This document shows, one piece after another, positions 28,540-44,816 of a DNA stretch of 64,000 bases; within the stretch, counting starts at the first letter, position 1; each line of letters begins with the position of its first letter. The DNA is taken from assembly GCF_013745115.1 (NCBI RefSeq), contig NZ_CP051151.1, positions 1,364,001 to 1,428,000 on the forward strand, written 5' to 3'. The notes under the pieces are model-generated. The model was not told the origin of the DNA, did not search any database, and saw only the letters and a list, made by a program, of their open reading frames with translations. The stretch is from Hujiaoplasma nucleasis. Its GTDB lineage: Bacteria > Bacillota_I > Bacilli_A > Izemoplasmatales > Hujiaoplasmataceae. A program made the translations under genes and the position numbers.

Positions 28540-28614
28540 AGGGGTGTGGTGTCAACGGTAGCACAGCGGTCTCCAAAACCGTTAGTACGGGTTCGAATCC
28601 TGTCACCCCTGCCA
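28540..28614 (+). tRNA. tRNA-Trp (CCA)
   Basis: Acceptor AGGGGTG/CACCCCT, anticodon loop CTCCAAA (anticodon CCA), discriminator G and encoded CCA. No TCA-anticodon tryptophan tRNA is seen, in line with TGA being a stop here. Confidence 0.95.
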
Positions 28615-28622
28615 ATATAAAA

Positions 28623-28735
28623 TGATGTGGCTTCCAAAAGTTGGAGATATGGTATTTAAAACCATATACTTTAATCAAGGGAGCCTTTTTTATATGAGAA
28701 CAACATTAAAAGAAAAGATAGAAATGTGCGAAGAG
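28623..28735 (+). mobile_element. Left-end fragment of an IS3-family element
   Basis: About 113 bases closely matching the left end of the element at 42908 (same TGGCTTCC, AAAAGTTGGAGATATGG and GGGAGCCTTTTTTATATG blocks), including the start of orfA, which breaks off after GAAGAG. It begins eight bases after the CCA of tRNA-Trp, the same distance as the full element has from tRNA-Leu. Confidence 0.85.
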
Positions 28736-28841
28736 TAGCTAATCAAATTATTCAATTATAATTATCAATTTTGTCATTGTTTAGTTAATCTGTTTAATAT
28801 ATAATTAGTTAAATGCAATATTATTTTGGAGGATTTTTTTT

Positions 28842-30230
28842 ATGAAAAAATATTTGTTACTTTTTTCTTTTTTATTTGTTCTATTTACTTTAGGCTGTGA
28901 AGGACTATCAACAGAGGAACTTACAGAAGCTCCAACAGAAGAGTCGACTGAAGCACCTACAGAGGAGCCAACAAATGAGCTAACAGAGGAACCTACAACT
29001 GAAGAGCCAACTACAGAAGAGCCAACTACAGAAGAGCCAACTACAGAAGAACCAACAACAGAGGAAAATGATAGTCAAATTATCAATCAAGTGATTGTTG
29101 ATAATGACATGATGAAAATTACTATTCTTGAAGCATATGAAGATAGTATCTGGGGATATACTTTAAAGATATATCATGAAAATAAGTCTGATATGAAACT
29201 TATGTTTGCTTTAGATGATGTAATAGTGAATGGATATGTTATTAGTGCTTTATGGGCCAATTCACTTCCTGCGGGTGCTAAAGCTACTGAAACAATTAAC
29301 TTGTCTTCATCAGATATGGAGGATTCAGGAATAACTTCTGTGGATAAAATAGATTTATATATGAGAGTATATGACTATGATGATTGGATGGCTGATAATT
29401 TAATCAATGATATTTATACTATATATCCAACTGGACTAACTGAAGAAGAAATCATATCTCCTGAGAGACCATCAAGTGATAATGAGTATATTCTTGTTGA
29501 TAACGAAGATTTGACATTTATAATTATTGAAACGTATGATGATAGTATTTGGGGTTATAGTCTAAAAGTCTATCTTGAAAATAAGACTAATTCTGAACTT
29601 ATGTTTGCCTTGGATGATGTTTTGGTTAATGGATATGTAATTAGCTCTCTATGGGCAAATTCAGTCCATGCTGGTGTAAAAGATATTGATGAAATTAGCT
29701 TGTCTTCATTAGATATGGAGGATTCAGGGTTAACATCGGTGGATAAAGTAGATTTGTATATGAGAGTATATGACTATAATGATTGGATGGCTGATGATTT
29801 AATCAATGATATTTATACTATATATCCAACCGGACTAACAGAAGAAGAAATCATATCTCCTGAGAGACCATCAAGTGATAATGAGTATCTAGTGGTTGAT
29901 AACGAAGATTTTAAATTTATTATTATTGAAACCTATGATGATAGTATTTGGGGTTATAGTCTAAAAGTCTACCTTGAAAACAATACAGATTCTATACTTA
30001 TGTTTACATGGGAAGATGTTTTGGTAAATGATATTGCGATTGATCCTTTTTGGGCAAAGGAATTGGTACCTAATAGCAAAGCTGTTATCTCAATAAGTTT
30101 CCTTGAATCTGTTTTTGAAGAAAATGGTATTGAGATTGTGGATAAAATAGATTTTATACTAAAAATTTATGATTCAATGGATTGGATGGCTGATGATTTA
30201 ATAAATTCATCATTTATATATAGACCATAA
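28842..30230 (+). CDS. Surface lipoprotein with three tandem repeat domains
   Basis: 462 aa. A signal peptide ends in the lipobox LFTLGC (lipidation at Cys19). Residues 20-75 are a Thr/Glu/Pro spacer made mostly of TEEP units, encoded by near-identical 15-base repeats. Then come three copies of a roughly 120-residue domain (from about 85, 212 and 338), each with DSIWGY, an NGYVIS-like strand and YDxxDWMAD; copies 1 and 2 are nearly identical in DNA. The domain resembles small immunoglobulin-like or DUF-type lipoprotein domains, but I cannot name it. Likely anchored outside the cell; function unknown. GGAGGA precedes the ATG. Confidence 0.8.
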   Translation: MKKYLLLFSFLFVLFTLGCEGLSTEELTEAPTEESTEAPTEEPTNELTEEPTTEEPTTEEPTTEEPTTEEPTTEENDSQIINQVIVDNDMMKITILEAYEDSIWGYTLKIYHENKSDMKLMFALDDVIVNGYVISALWANSLPAGAKATETINLSSSDMEDSGITSVDKIDLYMRVYDYDDWMADNLINDIYTIYPTGLTEEEIISPERPSSDNEYILVDNEDLTFIIIETYDDSIWGYSLKVYLENKTNSELMFALDDVLVNGYVISSLWANSVHAGVKDIDEISLSSLDMEDSGLTSVDKVDLYMRVYDYNDWMADDLINDIYTIYPTGLTEEEIISPERPSSDNEYLVVDNEDFKFIIIETYDDSIWGYSLKVYLENNTDSILMFTWEDVLVNDIAIDPFWAKELVPNSKAVISISFLESVFEENGIEIVDKIDFILKIYDSMDWMADDLINSSFIYRP

Positions 30231-42816: not shown

Positions 42817-42899
42817 GCGGGTATGGCGGAACTGGCAGACGCGCTAGACTTAGGATCTAGTTCCTTGGAGTGCAGGTTCGACTCCTGTTACCCGCACCA
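42817..42899 (+). tRNA. tRNA-Leu (TAG)
   Basis: Class II tRNA with acceptor GCGGGTA/TACCCGC, anticodon loop CTTAGGA (anticodon TAG), long variable arm, encoded CCA. An IS begins eight bases after it. Confidence 0.96.
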
Positions 42900-42907
42900 G
42901 CTAAACT

Positions 42908-44386
42908 TGAAGTGGCTTCCAAAAGTTGGAGATATGGTATACTAAACCATACACTCTAATGAAGGGAGCCTTTTTTATATGAAAATAACATTAAAAGAAA
43001 AGATAGAGATGTGTGAAGAGCATATTCTTAAAGGTAAATCATTGTCCCATGTATCAGAGATGTATGATGGTATGATATAGGGAACTTAAAATATATCATA
43101 AACTTATACAAGAAACATGGAAAGAAAGTATTTGATCATAATAAAATAAAAACATATAAAAGAGATACAAAGTTACTAGCGATCGCAAGGGTAGAGAACG
43201 GAGAATCAATACGGAGTGTAGCGTTGGATTTAGGACTTACAGATCCAACGATACTAGGAGATTGGTTAAAGTTATATAGAACAAAAGGTGAAGCAGCAGT
43301 TAAAGACACATATTCAAGAAAAGGATACCTTACAAAAGACAAGAGAGCAAAAGCAATCGTTGATCAAACATTATTAGAAGAAAATGAAAGACTGAAAGCC
43401 GAGATAGAGTACCTAAAAAAATCGCGGTCCTTAACAAAAAAACTAGAAGGCGTAACAAGCAAAGAAAAAGCTGAAATTGTTACATCGTTAAGGACCAAAT
43501 TTAAATTATCAGACCTTCTAGAAGTAGCACAGATGGCATCATCAGTTTATTACTATCATACAAGTGAATATAAGAAGAAAGCTAATAAATACAAGGATAT
43601 AGAAAAAGAAATAGATTATCTATATCTAAAGAAGCACAAGAAGAGAATTGGCTATCATAGGGTCTATATTGAGCTTAAGAAGATGAACTATGTTATAGGG
43701 AAAAACAAAGTCTTAGAGATTATGAGACATAAAGGCTATACTAAAAAGAAAGTTAAGAAATGGAGAAAATATAATTCATACGCAGGAGATTTAGGGTTTA
43801 CAAAGCCAAATCAAATGAACCAAGATTTCTCAACTCTCAAACCATATCAAAAAGCAGGTACAGATATTACCATGTTTAGAACTGAGAGAGGACCTGTTTA
43901 TCTTTCGCCAATCATAGACTTTGATTCAAGAGAAGTATTATCATATGTCGCAGGAACAAACGCCAAGATGGATAAGATTACAAAGATGTTGGAGTTATTA
44001 AAAAAACATCATTCCAATCGTGTGAAAGGAATGATGATACAATCGGATCAGGGTATTCAATATCAAAACTCAAGATATCAAACAAAACTTGAAGAGTTGG
44101 GCATCATACAATCAATGAGTCGAAAGGGAAACTGCTTAGATAATTCTCCTACTGAGAACTTCTTTGGAAGAATGAAAGTAGAGATGTGGTATGGTCATGA
44201 AAAAGAGTACAAGAGCCCAAAAGCTTTGATTAAAGCTATTGATGAATATATAAATTATTACAACAATACCCGTTTAGTTACAAAACATAAAATGAGTCCA
44301 ATAGAATATAGAAATAATATGATATAATATAAATAATAAGTATGGGGGTTAACCATTTTTCTCTCCAACTTTATAAAGCTAGTTCA
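42908..44386 (+). mobile_element. IS3-family (IS150-like) insertion sequence
   Basis: About 1.48 kb. The left end TGAAGTGGCTTCC then AAAGTTGGAGA matches the inverted right end TGAACTAGCTTTA then AAAGTTGGAGA at 20 of 25 positions. The element encodes a two-helix-turn-helix plus DDE transposase typical of the IS150 group. No clear target duplication is seen (ACT left, ATT right). The left end stands eight bases behind tRNA-Leu, and a partial copy stands at the same distance behind tRNA-Trp. Confidence 0.85.
43224..44327 (+). CDS. IS3-family transposase, frameshifted near its start
   Basis: The reading frame that holds the DDE domain is open from 43071 to 44327; its first ATG is 43224. The true N terminus lies in another frame: ATG 42979 reads KITLKEKIEMCEEHILKGKS, the first helix-turn-helix, and stops at TAG 43080. 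Joining the frames near 43071 restores IS150-type order: two helix-turn-helix motifs, a leucine zipper (LLEENERLKAEIEYLKK), then the catalytic domain with Asp in GTDITMF, Asp in IQSDQGIQYQ and Glu in DNSPTENFFGRMK. No A-rich slippage site is at the junction, so this is probably a disabling mutation rather than programmed shifting. Confidence 0.85.
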   Translation: MDLGLTDPTILGDWLKLYRTKGEAAVKDTYSRKGYLTKDKRAKAIVDQTLLEENERLKAEIEYLKKSRSLTKKLEGVTSKEKAEIVTSLRTKFKLSDLLEVAQMASSVYYYHTSEYKKKANKYKDIEKEIDYLYLKKHKKRIGYHRVYIELKKMNYVIGKNKVLEIMRHKGYTKKKVKKWRKYNSYAGDLGFTKPNQMNQDFSTLKPYQKAGTDITMFRTERGPVYLSPIIDFDSREVLSYVAGTNAKMDKITKMLELLKKHHSNRVKGMMIQSDQGIQYQNSRYQTKLEELGIIQSMSRKGNCLDNSPTENFFGRMKVEMWYGHEKEYKSPKALIKAIDEYINYYNNTRLVTKHKMSPIEYRNNMI

Positions 44387-44415
44387 ATTCTGACGGTTTT
44401 ACTGATTCTGGATAT

Positions 44416-44649
44416 GTGATAAGATTATCAGTTCATAAAGAAGGCATATTGACTACGACTGATACAAACTATATTGATGAAGTATTTCTTGAAGACGGAG
44501 CAACCATACCTTTGTTTAGTAACGATACCTACAACGGTTCTGAACGTAGAGGGACTATTACAAGGAGCAATGATTTAGATGAATTACTTGATATTTTACT
44601 TAACGCCTACGATTTTGATTTATCACTTATGGACACAATTCTTACTTAA
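44416..44649 (+). pseudogene. C-terminal remnant of an unidentified gene cut by the IS
   Basis: The frame is open from inside the right end of the IS and continues through FTDSGYVIRLSVHKEGILTT to a stop at 44649, with no start signal. The acidic, soluble 77-residue piece is not recognised. The other side of the IS is a tRNA, so the missing 5' part was deleted rather than displaced. Confidence 0.5.
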
Positions 44650-44816
44650 GATAAAAAAATACAAAAAGATGTTTCGAAACAAGAAATATCATTAGTTAAT
44701 CTATATGATTAGCTTACAACCAATATGATCTTTTCTGTAGAATAGTGAAAACTAACATTTAACACTTATTTGATTAGGCAATAGTATATATAGAAAAAAT
44801 ATTTAAGGAGAGAAAT

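Follow-up and report, generated by a model that had tools for sequence, protein, structure and literature searches.

An IS3-family clade that very probably measures its insertion site from tRNA and tmRNA 3′ ends, and whose left-end remnants appear to persist as tRNA terminators

The stretch of DNA analysed here (the window) spans 64,000 nucleotides of the Hujiaoplasma nucleasis genome and contains two tRNA genes, each followed at close range by the same end of an insertion sequence (IS). Behind tRNA-Leu, the last gene of a His-Gln-Lys-Leu cluster, the element is full-length, while behind tRNA-Trp a short remnant is present. The features of the two loci are as follows.

28540–28614, + strand: tRNA-Trp(CCA), called by ARAGORN; the upstream target of the remnant copy
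28615–28622, + strand: 8-nt spacer behind tRNA-Trp, ATATAAAA, read from the sequence
28623–28737, + strand: IS left-end remnant of 115 bp, comprising the left inverted repeat, the hairpin and the first ~40 nt of the transposase gene
28629–28691, + strand: terminator-like hairpin of the Trp remnant (stem 28629–28685, T-run 28686–28691; -24.1 kcal/mol)
42817–42899, + strand: tRNA-Leu(TAG), called by ARAGORN
42900–42907, + strand: 8-nt spacer behind tRNA-Leu, GCTAAACT, read from the sequence
42908–44386, + strand: full-length IS3-family element, left end towards tRNA-Leu, with ends TGAAGTGGCTTCCAAAAGTTGGAG and (reverse complement) TGAACTAGCTTTATAAAGTTGGAG
42914–42976, + strand: left-end hairpin and T-run of the Leu copy (stem 42914–42970, T-run 42971–42976)
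42938–42943, + strand: TATACT with a preceding TG-N, inside the hairpin; a putative extended -10 promoter-like site
42979–44327, + strand: transposase gene, located by tblastn, with rve and HTH domains
44361–44386, + strand: right inverted repeat, read from the sequence

An earlier note on this DNA had claimed that the left end of an IS3-family element lies exactly eight bases behind the CCA of both tRNAs, across intervening bases that differ. These observations hold in full: tRNA-Leu ends at 42899 and the IS starts at 42908 (with TGAAGTGGCTTCC...), tRNA-Trp ends at 28614 and the fragment starts at 28623 (with TGATGTGGCTTCC...), and the spacers ATATAAAA (Trp) and GCTAAACT (Leu) are different. 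The Trp remnant is 84% identical to the IS over 152 bp, flank included, and stops after ~14 transposase codons, the remaining IS being gone. Directly behind it, at 28842–30230, is a lipoprotein-like ORF with Thr/Glu/Pro-rich repeats (TEAPTEEST...) and no Pfam match.

The assignment of the Leu-copy element to the IS3 family was likewise borne out, with a score of 269 bits against NF033516 (cut-off 160). The transposase carries rve and rve_2 domains of the IS3-type DDE class, and the DD(35)E triad (D296, D357 and E393, with 35 residues between the last two) is invariant in four full-length members. The element has terminal inverted repeats of the TG...CA type, TGAAGTGGCTTCCAAAAGTTGGAG against TGAACTAGCTTTATAAAGTTGGAG, and is 99–100% identical to a copy at C1:105021 in the same genome. 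The transposase of the sister copy is a single fused ORF of 449 aa at C1:105092–106438, while the gene of the Leu copy in the window has a frameshift near 43072. Separate orfA and orfB frames joined by frameshifting, which are usual but not universal in the IS3 family, are absent from the clade that keeps the 8-bp distance (the ORF at L013:1093–2439 is fused) and are retained as two ORFs in the 7-bp sister elements L219 and L220 described below. As the two-frame layout is not strictly defining, the fused ORF does not cost the element its IS3 membership.

The genome (1.81 Mb, one contig) contains six copies of the left end. Three lie exactly 8 bp behind a tRNA CCA, namely those of the window behind tRNA-Leu and tRNA-Trp and a third, outside the window, behind tRNA-Ala (GGC) at C1:958672. 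Given 38 tRNA hits in 1.81 Mb, the chance that three of six copies would fall at one exact distance and orientation behind tRNAs is ~2e-14. The other three lie exactly 8 bp behind sequences ending in ...CAACCCA, ...CTACCCA and ...CAACTCA, which are the right ends of ~3-kb cargo cassettes arranged head to tail behind tRNA genes. These "...CA" sequences were considered as possible right ends of IS21 elements; that assignment was rejected when they proved to be the ends of the ~3-kb cassettes in arrays.

Relatives were searched with the left-end DNA, independently of tRNAs, and about 55 copies were found in 18 of 34 genomes. A left-end profile was applied to all retrieved loci, and four hits that were false or misassigned were struck out on visual inspection; 59 distinct copies resulted, whose upstream classes were assigned manually from the flanking sequence. 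For twenty, ARAGORN identifies an intact gene upstream (tRNA-Ala, -Gly, -Leu, -Trp or -Val, or tmRNA), at 8 bp in 19 cases and at 7 in one; for one further copy (L214) it is Rfam that identifies a tmRNA, again at 8 bp. The same is true of L216, which is near-identical to L214 and was merged with it in the count of 59. Over the whole set of ~60 left ends, 22 of the 23 behind intact tRNA or tmRNA genes are at 8 bp and one is at 7. Another 15 of the 59 follow partial or decayed tRNA or tmRNA 3′ ends, with 14 at 8 bp (in one case only if the IS end is given a 1-nt gap) and the last at 5. Cassette ends precede 17 more at 8 bp, a bare CTCCA precedes one (L112) at the same distance, and upstream of the remaining five no tRNA-like end is recognisable. 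Among the partial ends are duplicated tRNA-Val and tmRNA 3′ pieces that integrated islands probably left behind. Orientation is invariant, with the left end towards the RNA gene. Among about 20 relatives, the orthologues of tRNA-Trp are followed by other hairpins and no IS, and viral contigs yielded two remote relatives only.

The earlier note had proposed from the two window copies that the IS targets a position behind tRNA 3′ ends. When the left-end copies in the genome and in relatives were located and their separation from the tRNA 3′ end was measured, the pattern that would have spoken against the proposal, variable distances and copies away from tRNAs, was not seen. The proposal is thus supported, with the refinement that for roughly half of the copies the sequence 8 bp upstream is a tRNA-like end (a duplicated tRNA or tmRNA 3′ piece, or a "...CA" cassette end) and not a complete gene.

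A search with the transposase protein at the level of the order found intact copies in this genome only, and most relatives there thus hold remnants. This remnants-only picture was briefly entertained as evidence against movement of the IS and was dropped when a class-level search recovered full-length or near-full-length relatives (58–66% identical) in other families, at tmRNA and tRNA ends. Among them are L214 and L216, 8 bp behind tmRNA. The decayed copy L229 starts 8 bp behind tRNA-Leu(TAG), L215 has a tmRNA-like 3′ end at that same distance upstream, L213 and L230 start 8 bp behind cassette ends, and in L217 and L227 the left flank is lost or truncated. A more divergent pair, L219 and L220 (47–49% identity over the OrfB part), lies 7 bp behind tRNA-Leu and tRNA-Ala. 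In a maximum-likelihood tree of the OrfB part, the 8-bp and 7-bp elements form one clade (support 99/98), with 17 other IS3 copies outside it. The placement is specific to this clade: no tRNA was called adjoining any of the 17, and none of those with a readable left end lies behind a tRNA, the left ends of some, the Clostridia group, not being pinned down. A similar hairpin is present at the left end of several of these outside copies, and having the hairpin is therefore not enough to bring about the placement.

The left end itself is a terminator-like structure. In the Leu copy, GGCTTCC pairs with GGGAGCC and is followed by TTTTTT, and the hairpin has an energy of -25.6 kcal/mol against -12.6 +/- 2.4 for shuffled sequences (z -5.5). 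Between 28500 and 28900, no terminator other than the remnant's hairpin was found behind tRNA-Trp. The hairpin is conserved across the family: 54 of the 59 copies retain intact both the stable G+C-rich stem and the T-run that define an intrinsic terminator, and the two main helices are paired in 91% and 97%. Intact transposases are nearly absent from the family, and the hairpin is nonetheless kept. Compensatory change is modest (12 cells with both sides changed versus 7.4 in shuffles, and a covariation score matched by 55 of 500 shuffles), so that the case for conservation rests on retention more than on covariation. RNAalifold on the MAFFT alignment recovered only a short inner hairpin, with the loop misaligned, and the named structure was counted instead.

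The same hairpin may also control the transposase. Its 3′ arm contains GGGAG, the ribosome site of the transposase, ~10 nt before the ATG, and the hairpin would therefore hide this site in read-through RNA. The extended -10 site lies within the hairpin, and a -10 region reading TATACT or TATAAT occurs in most of 51 aligned copies. RNA reading through from the tRNA promoter would fold the hairpin, terminating transcription and masking the ribosome site, while a transcript started at the internal -10 would lack the 5′ arm. An internal promoter combined with a hairpin-masked ribosome site is a logic known for IS10 and IS50, and the left end described here would follow the same regulatory logic, to judge from its sequence. 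Moreover, as the hairpin would terminate read-through, insertion would not leave the tRNA unterminated, and after decay of the transposase the hairpin could be kept as the tRNA's terminator. That the left end is a terminator-like hairpin would explain the persistence of fragments, and the remnants appear to have become tRNA terminators.

The right side of the element is less uniform. The copy at C1:105021 is the only one with a known uninterrupted site (TATTGAAAGCATAGG), and it is flanked by a 3-bp duplication, AAA. Other full copies have no duplication or non-identical flanking bases (3–5 bp being the IS3 norm); at L214, L216, L219 and L229, the left and right flanking bases do not match. In L216, L219 and L229, a terminator-like hairpin directly follows the right end, which indicates that the IS alone was inserted. 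In the Leu copy of the window, L213 and L215, the right flank is other sequence and not a terminator, which suggests deletions beside the right end; for the Leu copy and L215 this flank is the interior of a reading frame. Past the right inverted repeat of the Leu copy, there is no matching target duplication, and the truncated reading frame directly behind it, at 44387–44650, was probably cut by a deletion adjoining the IS. A search for empty tmRNA sites in the genus of G386, from which the duplication could have been defined, found none, because every readable tmRNA gene there has a hairpin or element at its 3′ end. In a set of eight genomes of one genus (L234–L241), the downstream flank of tmRNA is readable in seven, and in each of these the CCA is followed at once by a hairpin or mobile element; in two of the genomes the tmRNA is 100% identical yet the downstream flanks are completely different. 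The tmRNA 3′ end is a strong insertion hotspot in that genus.

The cargo cassettes deserve separate mention. A large array begins behind tRNA-Gly(TCC) at C1:71475 and includes type I restriction-modification genes and large serine recombinases. Head-to-tail cassettes of ~3 kb occur behind tRNA-Gly(TCC), tRNA-Ala and tmRNA (C1:71475–110000, L106, L103/L104 and L100–L102). Each has its own terminator-like hairpin after the CCA at its start and an end reading "...TTGTATCAAAATAGGTCATACAACCCA", which forms an inverted repeat with the left end that follows. These cassettes look like SCC-type elements anchored at tRNA ends.

The cassettes raise the question of what actually moves. It is conceivable, albeit unlikely, that the mobile unit is a tRNA-anchored cassette that starts with 8 nt and an IS-derived terminator and integrates at the CCA, with the IS end as a passenger. 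The tandem cassettes behind tRNA-Gly, tRNA-Ala and tmRNA, with hairpins 8–13 nt after the CCA or after their own "...CA" ends, agree with such a scheme, as does the finding that some left ends mark cassette boundaries. However, in L216 and L219 there is no cassette, and a complete IS directly fills the interval from the RNA gene to a terminator-like hairpin; no known cassette end motif occurs near the Trp and Leu copies. Also against the cassette as mobile unit are the distance of 7 in the sister IS clade versus 8 in the main clade, and the C1:105021 copy, which interrupts a known boundary sequence with its 3-bp duplication.

More improbable still is that the IS has no target preference and that only insertions 8 bp behind tRNAs survive, as suppliers of terminators. 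Persistence of the hairpin where the transposase has been lost would fit this reading, but native tRNA terminators start at varied distances behind the CCA, roughly 8–25 nt, and selection would not be expected to fix one base position. Furthermore, the rule holds behind decayed tRNA pieces and cassette ends too, and no such position behind tRNAs is seen for other IS3 elements whose left ends form similar hairpins. The same variability in native terminators disposes of the idea that terminators, instead of tRNA ends, are targeted, since the distance of the IS stays at 8; it is not the terminator that sets the ruler. The least credible alternative, a tRNA-associated terminator repeat spread by recombination and later captured by an IS3 element, draws on the fact that most copies in relatives lack a transposase, but many solo copies retain the first transposase codons, the full element has matching inverted repeats, and the different spacers and differing hairpin identity argue for separate insertions.

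What very probably exists, then, is an IS3 clade with a ruler set on the tRNA 3′ end, whose left-end remnants appear to persist as tRNA terminators. Its members, found in several families of the same class, would insert at a fixed distance behind the CCA with which tRNA and tmRNA genes end (8 bp for the main clade, 7 for the sister pair), with the left end always towards the RNA gene, and the same distance rule would apply where integrated islands and cassettes have left tRNA-like 3′ ends. Upstream of the insertions at intact RNA genes, the T-arm GGTTCRA (-34 to -27) and the CCA (-11 to -9) are constant; cassette ends have AA at -28/-27 and CA at -10/-9 in common. With AA and CA in the same register, cassette ends could act as mimics of a tRNA end. 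The balance tips somewhat towards a transposase, or a recruited host factor, that reads tRNA-gene DNA (GGTTCRA and CCA, 9–34 bp upstream) and measures off 8 bp (7 in the sister clade), thereby repeatedly replacing natural tRNA and tmRNA terminators. The simplest idea is direct DNA recognition, putatively by the N-terminal helix-turn-helix region.

If confirmed, this would be a compact system in which one protein suffices for insertion at conserved safe sites of the genome, and the sister clades, at 7 versus 8 bp, would constitute a natural experiment on target reading by a DDE transposase when the target sequence varies. It would also document a route from mobile-element ends to terminators of essential RNA genes.

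In the literature searched, there was no bacterial IS with a base-exact tRNA ruler and no report of an IS3 element targeting tRNA ends. IS3 elements can nonetheless be strict about their targets, as IS1397, ISKpn1 and ISPsy8 choose REP palindromes strictly, a choice attributed in the case of IS1397 and ISKpn1 to the transposase itself (PMC1525189). The clade described here resembles these elements in its strict choice of safe intergenic sequence. Unlike the IS1397 type, where the REP repeat itself is the target, it does not insert inside a repetitive extragenic palindrome; its site lies 8 bp behind the CCA, at a fixed distance from tRNA and tmRNA 3′ ends of differing sequence and across spacers with no common sequence. 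A second parallel is with Tn7 and Tn7-like elements, which likewise insert in a single orientation and at a set spacing past a conserved gene. For Tn7 that gene is glmS, whose 3′ end is read and from which the insertion lies about 25 bp further on; Tn7 uses a dedicated target selector (TnsD/TniQ) and several proteins. In contrast, the 1479-bp element encodes one IS3 transposase ORF only, with no TnsB/TnsC, TnsD/TniQ or other selector gene. The landing site is also that of genomic islands that integrate at tRNA and tmRNA 3′ ends; these employ site-specific recombinases and duplicate the tRNA end, whereas here a DDE transposase is involved and insertion is outside the gene. Finally, strict tRNA-adjacent targeting is familiar from yeast and slime mould, where Ty1/Ty3 and the Dictyostelium TRE elements insert precisely or regionally next to tRNA genes as a safe site. 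Those elements are retrotransposons guided by RNA polymerase III factors, which bacteria do not have, and the tRNA-adjacent safe site is the feature held in common. Should recognition of tRNA-gene DNA prove true, this IS3 clade would be a bacterial IS counterpart of the tRNA-targeting retroelements of eukaryotes.
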